A model generated the notes under the pieces. That model saw nothing but the letters and a program-made list of their open reading frames with translations, was not told the DNA's origin and searched no databases. Shown here in pieces: positions 449-21,626 of a stretch of 42,904 nucleotides of DNA. Position 1 is the stretch's first letter. Each line of letters starts with the position of its first letter. Made by a program: the position numbers and the translations under genes. The DNA lies in NCBI GenBank assembly GCA_020845935.1, contig JADLEV010000023.1, positions 1 through 42,904 on the forward strand, written 5' to 3'. Source of the DNA: Gammaproteobacteria bacterium (GTDB lineage: Bacteria > Pseudomonadota > Gammaproteobacteria > Ga0077536).

Positions 449-2244
<1,796 letters not shown>

Positions 2245-2248
2245 GAGG

Positions 2249-2767
2249 TCACGAGCACAGCAGCAAATTGATCGCCGCGGCCAGATCAGCCGGTGCGGGT
2301 CCGGCTTGTTCCAGAGCCGATCCCCCGCGCACGCCAGGCATGCTCTGCACGGTGATGCCGAGGGCACGTGCCGCATCGCGATCGGCGGCGCGGTTGGTAA
2401 TCAGCGCGACCTCCCCGGCACTCAACCGGGCGCGCTGCACGATCTGCTGGAGCAGTCCCTGCTCGCTGGAATCGCAGACGCAGGGTTGGCCGGCGTCGTG
2501 CGGGCAAAAGGCCAGCGCCTCGATGCGCCCGCCACGTTGCGTGATCGCCCGCAACATCCGTTGCTGGCCGTGGAGCAGCGCGTCGATATCGAACGCGCCG
2601 TCGCGGGATTGTGCGCGGTCGCCCAGCAGGACGCAGCGGACTCCGGCCAACGTCAATCGAGCGATCGCTTCGACCGCGCCGGGAATGGCCTCCCGGCCAC
2701 CGGACTCGCCGGCGACACCTCGTGGCGGTTCGATGAGGCCGCTGCTCCTGATGATGACCAGTTTCAT
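2249..2767 (-). CDS. Degenerate HAD-family protein in the gmhB position (likely catalytically inactive)
   Basis: A protein of 172 residues that aligns by eye with D-glycero-D-manno-heptose-1,7-bisphosphate 7-phosphatase (GmhB), usually encoded between glyS and plsC. The zinc-binding part is kept: C88-P-H90 and C96-V-C98. The catalytic DxDG motif is replaced by RSSG at 7-10, so both the nucleophile and the acid/base aspartate are gone. The RKP that normally follows the last zinc cysteine has become DSS, and the first Asp of the VGD motif is N125, with D129 kept. The reading frame is intact, with codon use like its neighbours and a good ribosome binding site (GGAGG, eight bases before the ATG). 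It therefore looks like a maintained pseudoenzyme rather than a decaying gene. A structural or regulatory role is inference. Confidence 0.75.
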   Translation of the reverse strand: MKLVIIRSSGLIEPPRGVAGESGGREAIPGAVEAIARLTLAGVRCVLLGDRAQSRDGAFDIDALLHGQQRMLRAITQRGGRIEALAFCPHDAGQPCVCDSSEQGLLQQIVQRARLSAGEVALITNRAADRDAARALGITVQSMPGVRGGSALEQAGPAPADLAAAINLLLCS

Positions 2768-2795
2768 CGAGCCGCCTCCGCCAGGTGAACGCCGA

Positions 2796-4904
2796 TCAAC
2801 TCGACAGATTGAGCCGCGAGATGTCGGCGATGCCGGTGAACAAATGACGCAGCCGCGCCACCAGCGCCAGGCGGTTGGCGCGTACCGCCGGGTCGTCGCA
2901 CCACACCAGCACGGCATCGAAGAACGCATCGACGCTGTCGCGCAGCGCGGCCAGGCGCAGCAACGCTGCGGCATAGTCGCCGGTCGCGAGCAGCGGCGCG
3001 ATTTCGCTGGCTGCGGTCGCGAGATCCCGCGTCAGCGCCTGCTCGGCGGGCAACGCCAGCAGCGCGGGATCCAGTTCGGCCGGCGGCGGGGTCTCGAGCT
3101 TGGCGAGAATGTTGGCGCTGCGCTTGTTGGCGGCGGCGAGGCTCGCGGCCTGTGGCAGCGCGCGAAATGCCGCGACCGCGCGCACCCGTCGATCGAAATC
3201 GAGCGGGCGTGCCGGCCGGCGCGCGCGTACCGCGTCAAACACGTCGAACGGCACCTCGCGATCGCTGTAATAGGCACGCAACCGATCCAGCAGGAAATCG
3301 TGGACGCGATCGATCAGCGTGCTACCGGCAATCGCACCGTCGCCGGCCATGGTGCCGGTCAACGCGCCGAGATTGCCGGCGGCGATCGTGATCAACTCGA
3401 CCAGATCGAGATCGAGCTCGCGTTCGATGCAGATCCGCAGCACGGCGAGCGCGTGACGGCGCAGTGCATACGGATCCTTGTCGCCGGTCGGTTCCTTGCC
3501 GATGGCGGTGATGCCGACCAGCGTGTCGAGCCGATCGGCGACGCCGATCGCCTGCGCGAACGGATTCGTCGGCAGGGCATCACCGGCAAACCGCGGCAGG
3601 TAGAACTCCTCGAGTGCGCGCGCGATCGCCGCCGCCTCGCCGGATGCGAGCGCATAGTGATGACCCATCACGCCTTGCAGCTCCGGAAACTCGCCCACCA
3701 TGCCGGTCACCAGGTCGCAGCGCGACAGCTGCGCCGCGCGGCGCACCGCCGCGAGGTCGAGATCGAGCGCACGGCCGATCGCCTCGGCCAGGATCAGCGT
3801 GCGCTCGGTCTTGTCGTGCAGCGAACCGAGCTGCTGCTCGAAGACGATGCCGGCCATGGCTGGCAAGCGCTCGGCGAGCGGAGTGCGGCGATCCTGCTCC
3901 CAGAAGAACTGGGCATCCTTCAGCCGCGGCTGAATGACGCGTTGATTGCCGGCGATGATGCGTTCGGGGTGCGGGCTGTCGATGTTGACGATGGTGATGA
4001 AGCGATCGAGCAACCGCCCGTCAGTGCCACGCAGCGGAAAGTAGCGCTGATGGTTCTGCATCGTCGCCAGCAGCACTTCCTCGGGCAGCGCCAGGAACTC
4101 GGGCGCGAAGGCTCCGGTGAGCGCGACGGGCCATTCGACCAGCGCGGTCACTTCATCGAGCAGATCCGGCGCGACCAGCGCGGTACCCTTGGCCGCCTTC
4201 GCCGCCTGCTCGATCGCCAGACGAATCATCTCGCGGCGCGCGGCGAAACCGGCTATGACCTTGCCTTGCTGGCGCAAGGTCGCGGCGTAATCTGCCGCGT
4301 GCGCCAGCATGATGGCCGCCGGCGCCAGAAAACGGTGGCCATAGGTGATGCGATCGGCGGCGACGCCGAGGATGTGCGCCGGCACGATCTGCTCGCCATG
4401 CAGCAACACCAGCCAATGTACCGGCCGCACGAACTCGGCATCGGAACTGCCCCAACGCATCCGTCGCGGCACCGGCAGTGCTTGCAGCGCGTCCACGATC
4501 AGCGCCGGCAGGATCTCCGTTGCCGCCGCACCCGGCTGCTTGATGACACAACTCAGCCAGCGGCCCTTCTCGGTGGTCGTGATCTGCAACTGCTCGAGCG
4601 TGACGCCGCAGGAACGCGCGAAGCCCAGCGTCGCCTGGGTCGGGGCGCCGGCCGCATCGTAAGCCGCCGCGAGCGCCGGGCCGCGGCGCTCGCTGACGCG
4701 ATCGGATTGCCGCAGCGCCAGGTCATGAATCAGCAAGGCCAGCCGTCGCGGCGACGCGAAGCTTTCGATGTCGCCAAAGGCCAAGGCGGCCCTGGTCAGG
4801 CGCTCGCGCACGCCTTCGACCAGCGCGGCGCCAAGGCCCGCCAGCGCCTTCGGCGGCAACTCCTCGGTGCCGAGTTCCAGCAGCAGCGGCGCGGCGGCGG
4901 TCAT
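2796..4904 (-). CDS. glyS: Glycine--tRNA ligase beta subunit
   Basis: Large subunit of the bacterial alpha2beta2 glycyl-tRNA synthetase, responsible for tRNA recognition. It has 702 residues, close to the usual 690-ish. The N-terminus [15 protein letters not shown] is the family hallmark. The HD-like region ([11 protein letters not shown]) and the C-terminal anticodon-binding part ([15 protein letters not shown]) are present. The ATG at 4904 overlaps the glyQ stop (ATGA), as expected for two subunits made in fixed ratio. A longer open frame to 4928 exists, but the overlap and the conserved N-terminus decide the start. It is followed by the HAD-like gene after 28 bases. Confidence 0.97.
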
Positions 4905-5863: not shown

Positions 5864-5922
5864 CTGTGTCTCATTGCCGCGTCAAGCTTGCCCTTGCCGC
5901 GCCGCTAACCGGAACGAAGCTC

Positions 5923-6549
5923 ATGGCCTCCCTCTGCGCGGCACGCAGCCGGCCATTGGATTACCAAGTCGAAATGCGACCCGCGGAATACACCTCCATC
6001 ATGATCGCCTTGCACACCGAAGATACGCTGCCATGGCGAGCGCTGATCACCCGAGCCGAAGCCGAGATCGCGCTGGTGCTGCCGCAGCATGTCGAGGACT
6101 ATCTGTGTCGGACTCTGCTGCTGTACCTGGGCCGGCCAAACCGCCTTTCCGGTGCCAAGCGCGCGGCGGCGATCGATGCCCTGTTCGCGCAGGCGTCGCA
6201 GGACCCGCGCCTGATTGGTGATCGCTCGTTGCTGCTGGTTGGATTCTTCCCGGAACAGGTGACCCGCATGCAAGTGCCGGTGAACAGCCTGATCGAGTAC
6301 GGTCGGCTCGCATTGCGCACCAGCGCGCGCCGCGACGATGAACCGCTGCTGCTGGACGTCGAACGCGAATTCCTGCGGATCGTCGACGTGCTGCGGATGA
6401 TGCGACACCTGACCGAGGCAGCGAGGGCTCCCGATCTGCTGAACCTCTACCAATTCTGGTTGGATACCCGCAGCACGTACGCCTGGCAGCTGCTGCGCAC
6501 CGAGCTGGCGGGGTTGCCGGCGGCCACCGGGTCACGGCTGCGGCACTGA
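5923..6549 (+). CDS. Hypothetical protein, function unknown
   Basis: An intact reading frame with strong GC3 bias, which I do not recognise. The part from MIALHTEDTLPW (6001) onward looks like a compact, mostly helical soluble protein of about 180 residues: LPWRALITRAEAEIALVLP, then HVEDYLCRTLLLYLG, then DRSLLLVGFFPEQV and a C-terminal LLNLYQFWLDTRSTYAWQLL. There is no signal peptide, no membrane segment and no obvious metal or nucleotide motif. The start is uncertain. I give the ATG at 5923, which has a GGAA eight bases upstream. The ATG at 6001 is as likely, and an upstream ATG at 5866 would run into the glyQ promoter. It is divergent from glyQ and converges on the FHA-cyclase gene. Confidence 0.7.
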   Translation: MASLCAARSRPLDYQVEMRPAEYTSIMIALHTEDTLPWRALITRAEAEIALVLPQHVEDYLCRTLLLYLGRPNRLSGAKRAAAIDALFAQASQDPRLIGDRSLLLVGFFPEQVTRMQVPVNSLIEYGRLALRTSARRDDEPLLLDVEREFLRIVDVLRMMRHLTEAARAPDLLNLYQFWLDTRSTYAWQLLRTELAGLPAATGSRLRH

Positions 6550-10229: not shown

Positions 10230-13200
10230 TCAGGAATCGGCACACCGCCACGGCCACTCACGCCAATTCAGCAACAGCGGGAAATAGAGCCCGACCCGGA
10301 TCGGGCCGGCGTACATGGCGCTCAACAACGTCGCGTAGCGATCGAGCTGCGGCCGATAGCGCTCGCACTCGGAATCGATGAACGCCTCGATCGCGCCACC
10401 GGCGTGGGTGCTGGTCTTGTAGTCGATGATCCAGCAGGTCTCGTCGGCGGCGATGAAACTGCGATCGATGATCGCCTGGGACACCCGCCCGTCGATCAGT
10501 CCCGTCACGCGCTGCTCCGCGGCGGCCTGCCGATGCGTGCCGCTGAGAATCCAGCGGCCGCGCGGATCGGCCAGTGCGCCGGTGAGCGCCGCCAGCGCCT
10601 GGGCGATGGCCTCGTCGCCGGCGGCGCCGACCAGACCCAAGCGCTGCGCCTGTCGTACGAGCCCTGGCCGCAACGCCGCGATCCGATCCGGTGACCAGTG
10701 TTCGACGCCGTCGGCGGCGATGCGCCGCAGGCATTCGTGGACGATGGTGCCGACCTGACGCGCGGCGATGCCGGCCCAGGCGTATTCGACCGGCGTCGCG
10801 GCCAGCGGCAACTCCGGCGGAGCCGGCGTGCTGCGCGGCAGCGGCGAGGACCAGTCCGCGGGCAGCCGCAGCAGGCGCGGCGCTTCGGGCAGGGACGGTG
10901 TCGCGGACGCCGCCGGCTCGGCGGCGTACGCGAAAGCCTCGGCTACCGCGGGCCACAACACATCGAGCAGCGTTCCCGACGTTGGCTCGGCAGCCGCGGC
11001 GAGCGTGCCGAACAGATGCAACTCGCGCCGCGCTCGGGTCAGCGCGACATAGAGCAATCGGCGCAGTTCGAGCAGCTGTTCGAGTTGTTCCCGCCGCCGG
11101 ATCAGACTGGTCCAGCTGCGTTCCCCGTTCGTCTCTTCGCCCGGTTCCGGGATCGGCGCAAACAGCAGGCTGGTGTCATTGTCCGGCCAGACGATTTCGG
11201 TCCACTCGAGCAGCCGGCGCTCATCGCCCGACACGCGCCTTTCGATCGCCGGCACGATCACGACATCGAACTCCAGTCCCTTGGCCTTGTGGATCGTCAG
11301 CAGCGCCACGCCCGGCGCCTCGCTCGCGGCACCCTGCGCGCGCAGCCGCGCGATGCCTCGCTCCAGTTGCGCGCGGGTCGGGGTGCGATACTCGGCAACC
11401 AGGCTCGCCAGCAGATCGAAGAACTGCTCGGCTTCGCCGCCGGCCTGCTCGCTGCAAAGACAGGCCGGACCACCCAGTGCCAGCCAGGTCGTTTCGACCT
11501 GCTCATGCAACAGCCCCGCGCCGGACGATACGCCATCGAGCGCCGCGCGTACGCGCCGTACCCGCTGCCGACCCTCGGCGGACAGCCGCGCCTGCAGCGC
11601 CTCATCGGCGAGCAGATCGCGCACCACCGCCCTTGGCGGCGTTTGCTCGGCTTCGGTCAGGATCGCCAGATCCGCCAGCGTCAGACCGCACCAGGGCGCC
11701 CGCAACAACGCGAGCCAGGCAATGCGATCGGCCGGATGCGCGAGGGCACAGGCGAGGGTCGCGAGATCGCGCACGACCGCGCTGTGCGCCGGACCAGCGA
11801 CATCGCCCGCGCGCACCGCGATGCCACGCTCGCGCAGTTGCTGGGCGAGGCCGGTGACATGCGCGCGACTGCGCGCGAGCACGGCGATGTTCTGTTGCGG
11901 ATCCTGCGCCAGCCGTTGCGCGATGAGTGCCGCGATTTCGGCGCCGGCGTCGTCCTGTCGGCGTGCATGAACGAAGACCCCGGCCGCGCCCGTGGGCGCG
12001 ACCTCGGCGGTCACCGGGGTGTAGCCGACGGTGCGCACCTGCAAGGCATCGACCGGCGCATTGAGCCGTGGAAACTGCGCGTTGAGCCAGTCGATCAGCG
12101 CCGGCTGCGAGCGGAAGTTGCCGCTCAGCGCCAGCACCTGCAACGGCACGGTGCCGAAGCGGCCGAGCCGCACCACCTGCTCGAACAATTGCACATTGGC
12201 TTCACGAAAGCGGTAGATCGATTGCAGCGGATCGCCGACCAGAAACAGCGTGCGGCCGTCGCCCGGTTGCCAGCCGGCGGTCAGCCGCAACAGCAGTTCG
12301 TACTGGGTAATCGAGGTGTCCTGGAATTCATCGACCAGCAGATGCGCGATGCGGTGATCGAGCGCCAGCGACAGATCGGTCGGCCGCTCCGGCTCACCGA
12401 GCGCCCGCTCGGCGGCGAGCGCGACACGGGTGAAGTCCGACACGCCCTGTTCGACGAACACGACTTCGAGATAGGCCGCCGCGGCCTGCAACAGCCGCAG
12501 CAGCGATCCGGTCAGGGCGGCGTGGTGCGGGTCGAGCGACGGCTCCGGCAACCGGCGCAGTCCGGCGAGCGCCGCGGCGAGCCCCGGAACCGCGGCCAGC
12601 TCCGCCAGCAGAGCCAGCAGTTCCCCCTTGCGGACCTCGGCATCGGCCGCCTGTCGGCGCGGGGGGAAGCCGTTGTCGAGGGTCAGCCTTTGCCGCCATC
12701 CGCCAGCCGCGGTCAACAGCAGATCGGCGAGCGCGATCCAGTCGGGCAGGGCCTCCAGTGCCGCAGGCGGCAGCGTGTCGAGGTCGGCGAGACGCGTGCC
12801 CAGGCTGTCGGGCCTGTGGCGGGCCAGATTGGCGCCAGCGTACCGCACCAGCGGCAGCAGCCGCCCCACCAGCACCGCCGGGAACAGGTCACGGGCCCGG
12901 ACCAGTTCGAGCACGATCAGCCGCGTGACCGTTGCCGTCAGCGCCGCGCCGTCGGTGTCGCCCCGCAGCAGCCGCAGCCATTGATCGCGCCGCGACAGCA
13001 TTCCGGCCAGCAGCTTCTCGAAGCGGCGCTGATCATTGTCGAGATGGGTCAGCACGGCGGTGAGTGCATCGCGCCAGGGCAGATCCTGCTCCAGATCGGC
13101 CAGCAACTGACGCACGGCGTCGCGATACAGCGGCGCCGCGTCTTCGAGAATGACGCCCGGACCGCTCAAGCCGGACGTCAACGGCAAGGCCGCGGCGATG

Positions 13201-13556
13201 CCACCGGCGAAGGCGTCTATCGTCTCGACGCGCAGCCGGGCCGGTTGTTGCAGCAGGTCCCAACCACGCGCCGCGTCGCGAGCCAGCGCCGCGCTCGCGA
13301 GCGGCGTGGCCTGCTCATCCCGCGCGGCGGCGCTGCGCAGCGCACCGACGATCCGCTGGCGCATTTCGGCGGCGGCCTTGCGGGTGAAGGTGATGGCGAC
13401 GATCTCCTCCGGCGCCTCGACCCGTGCCAGCAACGCCAGGAAGCGCTGGGTCAGCAACGTGGTTTTGCCGGAGCCGGCCGGCGCGCGAACGATCACCGAA
13501 TGCGTGACATCGAGCGCCTGCGTTCGGATCGCATGATCGGCGGGCAGGCGGCTCAT
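10230..13556 (-). CDS. AddA-like UvrD-family helicase/exonuclease
   Basis: A 1108-residue helicase-nuclease of the RecB/AddA type, expected to unwind and resect DNA ends in double-strand break repair. Helicase motifs in order: Walker A APAGSGKTTLL near residue 24, ITFTRKAAAEM near 55, Walker B LLVDEFQDTS near 408, GDPLQSIYRFREA near 440, LLTIHKAKGLEFDVV near 750 and LLYVALTRARRELHL near 835. The C-terminal 120 residues carry a PD-(D/E)XK nuclease core (CWIIDYKTST near 1040). Its ATG overlaps the stop of the partner nuclease gene (ATGA). The pair replaces or supplements RecBCD in many gammaproteobacteria. It is a homologue rather than a proven AddA, so I give no symbol. Confidence 0.93.
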   Translation of the reverse strand: MSRLPADHAIRTQALDVTHSVIVRAPAGSGKTTLLTQRFLALLARVEAPEEIVAITFTRKAAAEMRQRIVGALRSAAARDEQATPLASAALARDAARGWDLLQQPARLRVETIDAFAGGIAAALPLTSGLSGPGVILEDAAPLYRDAVRQLLADLEQDLPWRDALTAVLTHLDNDQRRFEKLLAGMLSRRDQWLRLLRGDTDGAALTATVTRLIVLELVRARDLFPAVLVGRLLPLVRYAGANLARHRPDSLGTRLADLDTLPPAALEALPDWIALADLLLTAAGGWRQRLTLDNGFPPRRQAADAEVRKGELLALLAELAAVPGLAAALAGLRRLPEPSLDPHHAALTGSLLRLLQAAAAYLEVVFVEQGVSDFTRVALAAERALGEPERPTDLSLALDHRIAHLLVDEFQDTSITQYELLLRLTAGWQPGDGRTLFLVGDPLQSIYRFREANVQLFEQVVRLGRFGTVPLQVLALSGNFRSQPALIDWLNAQFPRLNAPVDALQVRTVGYTPVTAEVAPTGAAGVFVHARRQDDAGAEIAALIAQRLAQDPQQNIAVLARSRAHVTGLAQQLRERGIAVRAGDVAGPAHSAVVRDLATLACALAHPADRIAWLALLRAPWCGLTLADLAILTEAEQTPPRAVVRDLLADEALQARLSAEGRQRVRRVRAALDGVSSGAGLLHEQVETTWLALGGPACLCSEQAGGEAEQFFDLLASLVAEYRTPTRAQLERGIARLRAQGAASEAPGVALLTIHKAKGLEFDVVIVPAIERRVSGDERRLLEWTEIVWPDNDTSLLFAPIPEPGEETNGERSWTSLIRRREQLEQLLELRRLLYVALTRARRELHLFGTLAAAAEPTSGTLLDVLWPAVAEAFAYAAEPAASATPSLPEAPRLLRLPADWSSPLPRSTPAPPELPLAATPVEYAWAGIAARQVGTIVHECLRRIAADGVEHWSPDRIAALRPGLVRQAQRLGLVGAAGDEAIAQALAALTGALADPRGRWILSGTHRQAAAEQRVTGLIDGRVSQAIIDRSFIAADETCWIIDYKTSTHAGGAIEAFIDSECERYRPQLDRYATLLSAMYAGPIRVGLYFPLLLNWREWPWRCADS

Positions 13557-16099
13557 CGCCTTGGCTCATCGATGCGGCACAGCGCATCGAGCGGACAGTA
13601 TTCGCACGCCCTGGCCTGCGGCGTCACGGTCGCGACCCCGGTGTGGACCTCTGCCGCCAGACGTTCCAGCGCGGCGCGCCAGGACGCCAGTTGCTCGTCC
13701 CAGCTGTTGCTGACGAGCAGGCCCGGTCCCGCGACACCGTCCGCGACCAGTCCCTTGAAACCAAAGGTGCGGCGCGAGACACAGGCATAGGCGATGCCAT
13801 GCACGTCCGGCGCGGTAATCGCGTACAGCGGCAATTGGCACGCCCGTGGGCGATCGCCCTGCCAGTCGGCGGTCTTCGGCTCGCCGCTCTTGTAATCGAT
13901 GATCAGCTGGCCGCCCGACGCCAGCGCATCGCAGCGATCGAAGCGCAGGCGCAGGACCAGCGCGCCGATGTGGGCGTGCGACGTCTGCTCCGTCGCGGCA
14001 ACGGTGAACGGTTCGCGTTGCGCTTCGAGGTCGAGCCAGCGTTCCAGCAGCAGGACCAGGCGGCCGCGTTCGAGCGCGAGAAAGCGCGGGCCGAAATCGA
14101 TCCGCCAGTCGTGCTGCGCGGCCGCGAGCGCGTCGTCGATTGCCTGCGTCACCAGCTCCCGTCGCGCCACGGCGTCGAGCGCGAGCAGCGCCTGTTGCGT
14201 ACCGAGCCGGTGCCAGCAGCGTTGCAGCGCCGCGTGCAGCAATTGGCCGCGACCGCGGGCATCGAGACCCGGGCCCGGCTCATCGAGCGGTTCGGCACGC
14301 AACCGATGGCGCGCGACCGCACGAAACGGACAGGCGGATTGATCATCGAGCAGCGCGGCGCCGCCGCGCGCCGGCGCCGCGCCGCGCAACGGGCCGGGCC
14401 CGGGGTCCGCAAACGATTCGAGTGGTGCGCCCGTCGCGACCCGATCCCAGAGTGGCGGCGGCCGGCGCGCGATGGGCGCCGCGAGCGCCGGCAGGCCGCT
14501 CAACGCCGCCGCCGGCCGCAGCTCGGCTTCGCCATCACGGCCCGGCCAACTGAGTACCGCACCGCGCGCACCGGCGAGCAGCGCCGCAAGCTGCGCCTGC
14601 GCCAACCGCCAGCGCGCCGCGGCATCACACTGCGGCATGCCGGCGCGACGCTGCAACGCATAGGGCAACCAGGGCTGTGGCCGCTGCGGTGGCGGCCAGC
14701 CCTGTTCGTGCAGGCCGCACACCCAGACATAGTCATGCCGCAAATCGATCGCATCGTCGGCGGACAACAACCGAACCGGCGCCGCGAGTGCCGCCGTGGC
14801 GGGCAGGCGCCGTTCCGCCTGCTCGCGCAGCAGGCGCAACGCCGCGGCCTTGGACTGCGGCGGCAGCACCAGATCGATGCTGACCAGTTCATCAAGCAGG
14901 GCCTCCCAGGCCGCGGCGAGCCGGCTGTCCGGCCCGGCCTGCCAGCGCCAGGCGCCGAGGATCCGGCTGAAGCAGCCGGCCCAGTCGCGCAGCGTCCGCC
15001 GATGCGGGCCACGCAACTCGGCGAGCTGCGTGGACAGACTCCGCTCAAGATCGGCCAGCGGCGCCTGCCGCCGCGCCTCGCGGGCCAACCAGACAAGCGA
15101 CACCGCGAGCAACGGTAGGCGCCGCAGCCCGGCATCGAACAATGCCCGCGCGCTCGCGCTGCCGGCGTCGAGCCACGGGTCCGTCAGCAGCGCGCTGATC
15201 CGCTCGATAGGATTTGCCTTGGCTTCGAGCTCCAGCAGCGCGAAGGCCCGGGCGAACGATTCGGTTCGGGCGAGCATTTCATCCTGGGCGGCCGCGAACA
15301 GCTCCGGGCCTGCCATCGCGAACTCGCGCCGCAACCGGTACGCGGCAGCGTCCATCTGGCGCGAATCGAGCAGCACGATGGCGATCCGCGCGTCGGGCTC
15401 GCGATCAAGCCGTGCCTGTGCCCAGCGTGCGGCGGCCGCAAGTTCGGTCGCGCTGTCGGCACATGGCTGCTGCCATAACGCACCGGGAGCTTCGGCTGCC
15501 GCTGGCGCCTGGCGGGTCGCACCGCAGGCCGCCAGCAGCGCCGTACGCGCCGGCACGTCGCCGGCAAAGCCACGCAGCAGGAGGGTTGCTTGCGGGGCGA
15601 GGCGCGGTTGCAGCCAAGCCGCGAGCCGCGCCGGGTCGAGCCAATTCGCCGCGGCACAAGCGCGTTCGAAATCACGCGCCCAGCCCGCGAAGATCACGGC
15701 TTCGGTTCCGTGCTCACCGCTTGGCAAGGCAGCGAGCGGGATCTGCCAATCATGCAGCTGCCGCCATGCCTCGTCGGCGCGCCGGACCAAGCCCGCGAGC
15801 TGCCCGCCGATGCCGTCGATACCGGAGCCGCCGATGATGCGGCGCCACAGGGCGCGGCGCTGCGCGCCGCCGAGCAGCAATGGCGCCGCATCGCGGTCCT
15901 GGTCGAGATAAGTCCGCTCCAGCCAAGCCGGATACGGCAACACGTCCGCGCTCGGCCAGGCGCGCAGCCCCGCGGCGAGGCAGGTGCGATCGAACTCATG
16001 CCGCAGCACGTCCGCCTGAAATCGCGTTGCGGTCAGCAGCGTCGCACCCTGGCGCAGTGCGTCATACGCGGACCGTGGGGCGGATCGTGGCATCGACAT
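13553..16099 (-). CDS. AddB-like PD-(D/E)XK nuclease, probable DNA repair protein (TIGR03623 type)
   Basis: An 848-residue partner of the downstream helicase. The N-terminal half resembles an inactive helicase fold, as in AddB, with no Walker A. The C-terminal third has a PD-(D/E)XK nuclease core (RFDRCDALASGGQLIIDYKSG near residue 735, with the D and DYK residues). Cysteines fit an AddB-type iron-sulfur cluster: one in QSACPFRA near 595, and three in the C-terminal CEYCPLDALC. It would process the complementary strand during end resection. Two in-frame ATGs (16099 and 16093) are equally possible. It is divergent from a DUF4124 gene and translationally coupled to the helicase. Confidence 0.9.
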   Translation of the reverse strand: MSMPRSAPRSAYDALRQGATLLTATRFQADVLRHEFDRTCLAAGLRAWPSADVLPYPAWLERTYLDQDRDAAPLLLGGAQRRALWRRIIGGSGIDGIGGQLAGLVRRADEAWRQLHDWQIPLAALPSGEHGTEAVIFAGWARDFERACAAANWLDPARLAAWLQPRLAPQATLLLRGFAGDVPARTALLAACGATRQAPAAAEAPGALWQQPCADSATELAAAARWAQARLDREPDARIAIVLLDSRQMDAAAYRLRREFAMAGPELFAAAQDEMLARTESFARAFALLELEAKANPIERISALLTDPWLDAGSASARALFDAGLRRLPLLAVSLVWLAREARRQAPLADLERSLSTQLAELRGPHRRTLRDWAGCFSRILGAWRWQAGPDSRLAAAWEALLDELVSIDLVLPPQSKAAALRLLREQAERRLPATAALAAPVRLLSADDAIDLRHDYVWVCGLHEQGWPPPQRPQPWLPYALQRRAGMPQCDAAARWRLAQAQLAALLAGARGAVLSWPGRDGEAELRPAAALSGLPALAAPIARRPPPLWDRVATGAPLESFADPGPGPLRGAAPARGGAALLDDQSACPFRAVARHRLRAEPLDEPGPGLDARGRGQLLHAALQRCWHRLGTQQALLALDAVARRELVTQAIDDALAAAQHDWRIDFGPRFLALERGRLVLLLERWLDLEAQREPFTVAATEQTSHAHIGALVLRLRFDRCDALASGGQLIIDYKSGEPKTADWQGDRPRACQLPLYAITAPDVHGIAYACVSRRTFGFKGLVADGVAGPGLLVSNSWDEQLASWRAALERLAAEVHTGVATVTPQARACEYCPLDALCRIDEPRR

Positions 16100-19880: not shown

Positions 19881-21626
19881 CTACCGCCAATCATCGACCA
19901 GCACGCCGCGACCCAGGCGGAAATCGGTCGCGAACCACGTCGTCTGTACCGCGCCGCCGACGACGACGACCTGAATCGCGCCAGGATTGTTGAAGGGCTT
20001 GATCAACGCGTCGCCCGGCAGCTTGCGCCAGGTGGCATAGGGTTCGAGACCCTGCAGCGCCATCGCGATATTGGAGGTCGTAATGACGCCGTTGCCCCAG
20101 TAGGACGCGACCGTCTTGTCGACATTCTCCGACAGCCACTGGCTGAGTTGCTGCTTGGTCTTGAAGCCGTTGACGTCCTTCAGCAACTGCGCCACGGTCG
20201 GATCGACGAAGATGGTGGCACCGGAGCCGCTGCCCGACAGCGCCCGCATGTAATCGCGGATCAGCTGGTGCGCCGGATAGCTCGGCTGCACCTCACCGAG
20301 GCTCGAGATGTAGCTCCAGCCGGTGCCGGTGGTCACCACGCTGTCGGTCGGCTTGAAACCCATCTGCACGTGCAGCGGTTGCCAGCCTTCCGGCAACAGA
20401 TCCTCGTTCTCGGCTATGGTCAGGCTGTTGTATTGCAGGTTGTTGCCGAGGGACTCCCAGGCGGTGACGTTGTTGCGCATGTCACCTGCGGTCTTCGAGA
20501 TCAGCGTGAAGAAGCGGCCGATCACCGAGTTCGCCTCGTTGTATGGCCCCATCGCATTGGTACCGGCGTTCATGCCGAGCTCCTTCGCAATCGGACCATT
20601 GACGACGATCGTGTTCGCCATCGACGAGGTCGAGGTCGCGAACGGCGCGCGCGTCGAGAGTGCCAGCAGCAGCGGCATGTACTTCGGTTTAGCGCCCGCC
20701 ATCACCGCGTGGATCGCGACCTTCTCGACCGTCAGATCGCGCGCACCACCGGGAAAGGTCACGGTCCGGATCAATTCATCCGCTTTGTGACTGGTGCCGG
20801 TCAGCATCCTTTTGACGCGTTCTTCCGTCGGCAGAATGATCGGGTTGTAGTCGGTCCACTCGCGATCCTTGAAGAGTTGCTGCAGGTTCTCCTCGGTGTC
20901 GGCCGGCAGCAACCGTGGCTCAATCGATGCCATGTCACCGGCGGTCGTCACCACCCGCTCCTCGGCGGTCAGTGGCTTGGTCAACGCGATCTCGATCGCT
21001 TCCATCATCGGCTTGCCGGACAGCGGCTCCGGACCGCGGACATACGCCTTGTGCACCGCCTTCGGCTGGCCGGTGATTGGGAAGGGGACCGCGACATAGC
21101 GGACCGGCATGCCATTGGTGTACTTGAAGTCGTAACCGATGGCGTAGCTGACGATGTTGGAGCCCGACAGGGCGACGGTGGGGACTTTAAGCAACTCCAG
21201 GCTGCGGGCGTGTCGGCTCACGGCCGACGCACAGCCGTTTCATTGCGCAATGCCGACGATGGCGGCATCTCCCTTCTCGTCGATCTCCTTCCACAATGCC
21301 GGATCGTCGCTGAACATGTTGTCCTTGGTGCGGCGCAGCTCGGTCTTCACGCTCGGCATGTTCTCCTTGAACCAGGCCTGCATTTCCTCGAGCACGCTGT
21401 AGCCGCCTTCCGGCCCGCCCCATTGAATGTCGACCAGGTAGATGGTCTTGCCTTCCAGCGTATCGAGCCGCTCGCTGAGCGCTTGCCGCTTCGCGAGCTT
21501 GCTCGGCATGGCCGGGTTCATCACGGTAATCTTTGGTTCGGCGGTGATGCCGTCGGGTGCATACGCGGTGAACGCGGATGCCGCAAACGCGATCAGCAGC
21601 GCCGAGGATCGGTAGCTACGTTTCAT
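19881..21626 (-). CDS. Exported UGSC-family selenoprotein with in-frame TGA (Sec129)
   Basis: One frame of 582 codons interrupted only by TGA at 21240-21242, codon 129. Read as selenocysteine, the protein has 581 residues. Residues 1-23 are a signal peptide (MKRSYRSSALLIAFAASAFT). The first domain ends with DAAIVGIAQ-U-NGC, giving a UxxC redox motif (Sec129, Cys132) at the place where UGSC-type proteins carry U/C-G-S-C. It continues VPTVALSGSN and YTNGMPVRYV. The C-terminal half (AIHAVMAGAKPKYMPLLLA, then IVVNGPIAKELGMNAGTNAMG) matches the second part of longer family members as I remember them. The ATG at 21626 has GGAGGG five bases upstream. The role is unknown; a thiol/selenol redox activity in the periplasm is likely from the motif. 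Conventional gene calling would give two genes, the second falsely starting at a GTG (21221) inside the hairpin. A nonsense mutation is the alternative. Confidence 0.8.
21208..21232 (-). promoter_or_regulatory. Candidate bacterial SECIS element
   Basis: Directly 3' of the TGA, GUCGGC (21223-21228) pairs with GCCGAC (21212-21217) around the loop CGUGA. Below a single C/A mismatch, GUG pairs with CGC for three more pairs. The apical loop begins 17 bases after the UGA and has a G within its first two bases, with a GU inside. These agree with the known bacterial SECIS rules (loop 16-37 bases from UGA, G in the first two loop positions). SelB binding is inferred. Confidence 0.7.

Follow-up and report, generated by a model that had tools for sequence, protein, structure and literature searches.

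A predicted catalytically dead GmhB relative in the glyS-plsC slot of a gammaproteobacterium, with counterparts elsewhere in the class

Pseudoenzymes are well known as a class. HAD phosphatase chemistry requires the aspartate of motif I, and Tim50 is an example of a HAD-fold pseudophosphatase, in which the fold has been kept and the catalytic aspartate lost. In the phosphatase GmhB, the lysine of the RKP motif is also catalytic. The papers listed by our literature searches included no pseudoenzyme among GmhBs or bacterial HAD proteins. Motif I is quoted as DxDx(T/V) in PMC8204981, and PMC9302095 describes the GmhB of E. coli as partly redundant.

Here we describe a degenerate relative of GmhB encoded in a 42,904-nucleotide stretch of gammaproteobacterial DNA (contig JADLEV010000023.1), which we call the window. 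The 172-residue frame, read from 2767 to 2249 on the minus strand, is intact, starts with ATG and has a GGAGG 7 nt upstream. Among profiles it is best matched by PRK08942, the GmhB model of NCBIfam, with E 4.1e-19 and 68.8 bits (cut-off 178); TIGR01656 follows at E 5.7e-10, and both scores lie below the curated cut-offs. The protein also matches the solved GmhBs 4PNH (8.3e-17) and 3L8H (1.4e-13); a Pfam search was too weak for it, and an Rfam search returned no matches. An error of assembly or frame was rejected: about 70% of the residues differ from relatives, all of them in frame and without a stop. The ORF is a descendant of the GmhB that is normally placed between glyS and plsC. An AlphaFold model from 12 sequences (mean pLDDT 70, pTM 0.73; residues 14-24 and 145-160 poor) gave 3L8H as its first Foldseek match (TM 0.79, E 2.3e-9), with 2GMW and 4PNH among the top PDB matches; the model is informed by homologues and so is not independent proof that the window protein folds. 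The predicted fold is GmhB-like, and the zinc loop is retained.

Table 1. Features of the locus in window coordinates.
Feature	Position	Strand	Basis
glyS, glycyl-tRNA synthetase beta subunit, upstream neighbour of gmhB	2796-4904	-	sequence and gene order
GGAGG, likely ribosome-binding site, 7 nt before ATG	2775-2779	-	read directly from sequence
Degenerate GmhB, 172 aa, predicted catalytically dead HAD-IIIA protein	2249-2767	-	profile, alignment, structure matches
Motif I position: RSSG for DRDG, residues 7-10, both catalytic Asp lost	2738-2749	-	family alignment
Motif II position: GDRAQ for SNQSG, residues 49-53	2609-2623	-	family alignment
Retained zinc loop CPHDAGQPCVC, residues 88-98	2474-2506	-	family alignment
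Motif III position: DSS for RKP, residues 99-101, catalytic Lys lost	2465-2473	-	family alignment
Motif IV position: TN for GD, residues 124-125; D129 kept	2393-2398	-	family alignment
plsC-like acyltransferase, GTG start 4 nt past gmhB stop, no evident Shine-Dalgarno	1471-2244	-	read from sequence

Elsewhere in the window, two adjacent large genes at 10230-16099 (minus strand) carry UvrD-type helicase and PD-(D/E)XK nuclease domains and resemble an AddAB-type recombination pair. Two further sizeable ORFs, at 5866-6549 (plus strand) and 19881-21221 (minus strand), had no Pfam match at E 0.001.

The gene at 2796-4904 is presumably glyS, judging by sequence and gene order, and the likely glyQ and hemB flank the glyS-gmhB-plsC group. 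Because the GTG of plsC lies just past the gmhB stop and lacks an evident Shine-Dalgarno sequence, plsC is likely to be translationally coupled to gmhB. We surveyed the slot in the 29 other genomes of the family in which the plsC locus was read. A canonical GmhB stands directly before plsC in 25 of them, with stop and start often overlapping or touching. In the other four, all of genus g2 (L093, L096, L099 and L101), glyS runs directly into plsC across a gap of 36-58 nt, so that GmhB is dispensable at least there. Overlapping or near-touching junctions also occur in G342 and G336, two genomes with degenerate GmhBs of their own that are described below; the G342 junction has a plsC GTG, in frame, that overlaps the stop of gmhB, and coupling may act there as well. 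Such junctions, together with the drifted catalytic residues, are what one would see if the frame were kept open only as a translated spacer for the plsC start, its amino acids no longer mattering. We consider this rather unlikely: all four g2 genomes do without a spacer, which is thus not needed in general, and both the pattern of retained residues and the selection described below speak against it.

To define what has changed, we aligned the window protein with the 25 canonical family members from the same slot, taking as conserved the 49 columns that reach at least 92%; it retains 19 of them. All four catalytic motifs are replaced. In motif I, D7, R8 and D9 have become R, S and S, so that the protein reads RSSGL in place of DxDx(T/V). 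The motif II stretch S49-N50-Q51-S52-G53, with its Ser/Thr, has become G-D-R-A-Q; R99-K100-P101 has become D-S-S, without the RKP lysine; and of the motif IV pattern (G/S)D...D, G124-D125 has become T-N while D129 is retained. The C-x-H/C-x-C zinc loop is present, with C88, H90, C96 and C98 kept, as is P89. Chance is not an issue for the motif loss, because not one of the 56 other homologues read (L002-L057; L058 and L059 were dropped from the count, their matches not being GmhB frames) has lost any of the four catalytic patterns or the zinc loop. The nucleophile aspartate, the acid/base aspartate, motif II, the lysine and the Mg-binding aspartate, all needed for HAD phosphatase chemistry, are thus lost from the aligned sequence, and the protein is predicted to be catalytically dead. 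Retention is uneven: 2 of 17 conserved columns survive in the four catalytic motif windows and 17 of 32 elsewhere (Fisher p 0.006). A 14-residue active-site list, hand-picked after seeing the data, gave 0 of 14 against 19 of 35 (p 2.5e-4), and with the published motif residues alone the difference did not reach significance (1 of 7 and 18 of 42; p 0.22). The survival of every zinc residue and of so many non-motif columns argues against a mere spacer.

These results confirm what the original prediction observed and support its reading in part. It had described an intact frame with a good ribosome-binding site, in the usual gmhB place between glyS and plsC, an order now found in 25 of the 29 other family loci read. 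It had also reported RSSG for DxDG, DSS for RKP, asparagine (N125) for the VGD aspartate and the keeping of the zinc cysteines and histidine, all of which the alignment with 25 family members reproduces. The loss of the NQSG motif was absent from it. The new structural or regulatory role that it suggested, perhaps tied to the glycyl-tRNA synthetase or the acyltransferase, is a hypothesis.

A search of the class, in which the places of the best matches were listed, covered 369 genomes; 316 matched at E 1e-8 and 53 did not. Among those that matched, we read the sequences of 23 of the lowest-scoring genomes and of the window's genome (G000). On this basis at least four of the 369 genomes carry a degenerate GmhB. 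The three further cases among the 23 low scorers, G342, G336 and G130, come from three families other than the window's, and all lie between glyS and plsC. G342 reads EREG at motif I, has NQSG replaced and has lost the lysine, and keeps the zinc site and GD. G336 keeps DRDG but reads NEPA, RWP and GG at the other motifs, and its zinc site is lost. G130 reads SREG, SDAG, AQP and VAD, with a zinc loop that, as read from sequence, is C-x-C/C-x-C. By eye, the remaining low scorers are HisB, other HADs, fusion proteins, canonical GmhBs or fragments at contig edges. The zinc loop of the G130 protein (L143) runs C-G-C ... C-P-C, so its zinc may be bound by four cysteines in place of the Cys3His set.

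Across 35 canonical rows 36 columns are conserved; G342 keeps 26 of these, G336 24, G130 19 and G000 17. None of the four degenerate lineages retains Q51, S52 or K100 (the alignment near residues 49-56 is uncertain for G342), and every one of them retains G10, G30, A34, G42, L64, R112, A133, G137 and L162. Retained features otherwise differ from case to case: G336 has lost the zinc site and kept DRDG, unlike the window protein. Might the old active site have acquired a new catalytic activity from different residues? The replacements in the window protein are non-conservative and bring new charged residues (R7, D50, R51 and D99) to the former active site, and the purifying selection seen in a sister case would fit this too. 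Yet the four lineages have no new active-site signature in common, and the motif I aspartate that HAD phosphatase chemistry requires is gone from the window protein; we regard a new activity as very unlikely.

The sister cases suggest how the phosphatase might have become free to change. TIGR02199, the profile of HldE domain II, matched nothing in G342, G130 and G336, all 98-99% complete, and nothing in G115, a genome that also gave no GmhB match. In G103 and G233, which belong to the family of G336 and, judged by match score (E 2e-64 and 1e-63), have good GmhBs, it exceeded its cut-off. This suggests that in G342, G130 and G336 the loss of heptose synthesis freed the phosphatase while the protein stayed.

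Selection could be measured in the order of G342, which is represented by 20 genomes: its congener G401 carries the same pseudo-GmhB, 95% identical. In this order 17 of the 20 genomes have no GmhB match, and what matched in G404 lies outside the slot, a separate gmhB of canonical type with a gmhA-like gene nearby. Between G342 and G401 the Nei-Gojobori dN/dS of the pseudo-gmhB is 0.14 (bootstrap 0.056-0.308; 182 codons, with 23 synonymous and 10 nonsynonymous differences), like that of the neighbouring glyS (0.156, 199 codons) and plsC (0.129, 235 codons). In a neutral simulation that avoided stops, 10 or fewer nonsynonymous among 33 changes arose in 0.02% of runs (P = 0.0002). At least one such pseudoenzyme is therefore selected as a protein, and in this single measurable case selection is of the same strength as on the neighbouring genes. 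Such a result is not expected of a spacer that serves coupling alone. The window's own copy is presumably under the same purifying selection. The proposal that the window holds a maintained pseudoenzyme is thus supported mainly through the sister genus and the recurrence in the slot, and for the window copy itself selection is inferred. In G401 (L154, about 600-1495), some 900 bp of repeated REP-like sequence lies between glyS and the pseudo-gmhB, and is not in G342.

Trees bear on whether the degenerate genes stem from one loss or several. In the gmhB tree the degenerate sequences come together, but long branches meet there, and the tree is compatible both with a single ancient pseudo-GmhB clade (p-AU 0.51) and with a grouping of the G000 protein among those of its own family (p-AU 0.42). 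By glyS and by plsC, G000 falls next to its family members, at support values of 89.9 and 86.8 respectively (not starred). We favour separate losses in G000 and G336, because the replacements differ and kin in two families have high-scoring GmhBs. The GmhBs of G336 and G342 group together (91/93) and may share one origin.

The assembly of the window's genome totals 2.16 Mb in 94 contigs, with a completeness of 62.5%; it is the single genome of its genus in the comparison set. A second gmhB, which the original prediction had proposed looking for, was not found in this 62.5%-complete assembly; only the copy in the slot matched. A replacement GmhB elsewhere in this incomplete genome was rejected, the HAD matches outside the window being weak and, by eye, of phosphoglycolate-phosphatase type. 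Neither gmhA, which 32 of 35 relatives match, nor Glyco_transf_9, present in 35 of 35, was found at this completeness; these absences are weak, because about 37% of the genome is missing. The sole GmhA candidate, on contig C54, was rejected because by eye its ORF resembles KdsD. The C-terminus of HldE is present, as 51 residues cut by a contig start and with their own stop (TIGR02199, 51.8 bits, E 7.1e-14), so the ADP-heptose route may persist. On the same contig (G000:C35; L103 1-154), the HldE C-terminus is followed by an ORF that resembles an O-antigen ligase by eye. By analogy, partial redundancy of GmhB of the kind described for E. coli in PMC9302095 could explain why catalysis is dispensable in this genome.

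The missing heptose genes, that redundancy and the intact GmhBs of the family members read would also fit a gene in simple decay, whose frame has not yet broken after the heptose pathway, or GmhB's share in it, became dispensable. In trees of the same 26 genomes, the terminal branch leading to the window's gmhB measures 2.89 substitutions per site, compared with 1.44 for plsC and 0.82 for glyS. Synonymous codon preference is strongest in the true frame, at 0.229 per codon; the two remaining frames of that strand give -0.021 and -0.196, and the antisense frame gives 0.14. The preference is weaker than in the neighbouring genes (0.33-0.45). This argues against recent decay, since so long a branch carries no stop or frameshift and codon bias has been kept, and a gene long broken should show stops. 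The weakness of the absences, the retained HldE C-terminus and the purifying selection in the G342/G401 pair add to the case, and we judge decay to be quite improbable. The original prediction had taken active relatives beside one degenerate strain as the sign of recent decay. That is literally the pattern within the family, all 25 of whose slot GmhBs are of canonical type; the recent decay expected from it is not borne out by the branch length, the open frame, the codon preference and the uneven retention.

Overall, we think it somewhat probable that the window protein has been kept as a folded, non-catalytic protein after its phosphatase activity became dispensable, helped by the coupling to plsC. 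The likely trigger in G342, G130 and G336 would be loss of the ADP-heptose pathway, a trigger that may not apply to the window's genome, given its HldE fragment. GmhB would still be made, folded and kept for a role that depends on binding and not on chemistry; its most plausible partner would come from the operon or the envelope, PlsC being an example, and translational coupling would be a probable second reason for the open frame. More tentatively, it is possible, though we would not call it probable, that besides its catalysis the GmhB of this slot serves a second function that needs no chemistry, perhaps exercised together with PlsC or with envelope lipid synthesis. This function would outlive the phosphatase and be exposed whenever that activity is unneeded, and pseudo-GmhBs would be kept for it in several lineages of the class. 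A pseudoenzyme that keeps arising from one enzyme in one slot, and that is under selection comparable to its neighbours' in the single measurable case, would point to a hidden second role of a textbook LPS enzyme. For annotation pipelines, a gene in the gmhB position is by itself no basis for inferring ADP-heptose synthesis.

Among described systems, Tim50 differs from the window protein in family, organism and context, and we claim no close relationship. The N-terminal histidinol phosphatase of HisB (TIGR01261; PDB 2FPR) belongs to the same HAD-IIIA branch with a zinc loop, and matches weakly in profile and fold, but the window protein has no IGP dehydratase fusion, no neighbouring histidine genes and no catalytic residues. 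The nearest relative is GmhB itself (PDB 3L8H, 4PNH and 2GMW). The window protein differs from it in the replacement of motifs I, II and III and of the motif IV Gly-Asp, and in its profile score (68.8 against a cut-off of 178 bits), and it shares with GmhB the sequence family, the predicted fold, the C-x-H/C-x-C zinc loop and the slot between glyS and plsC.
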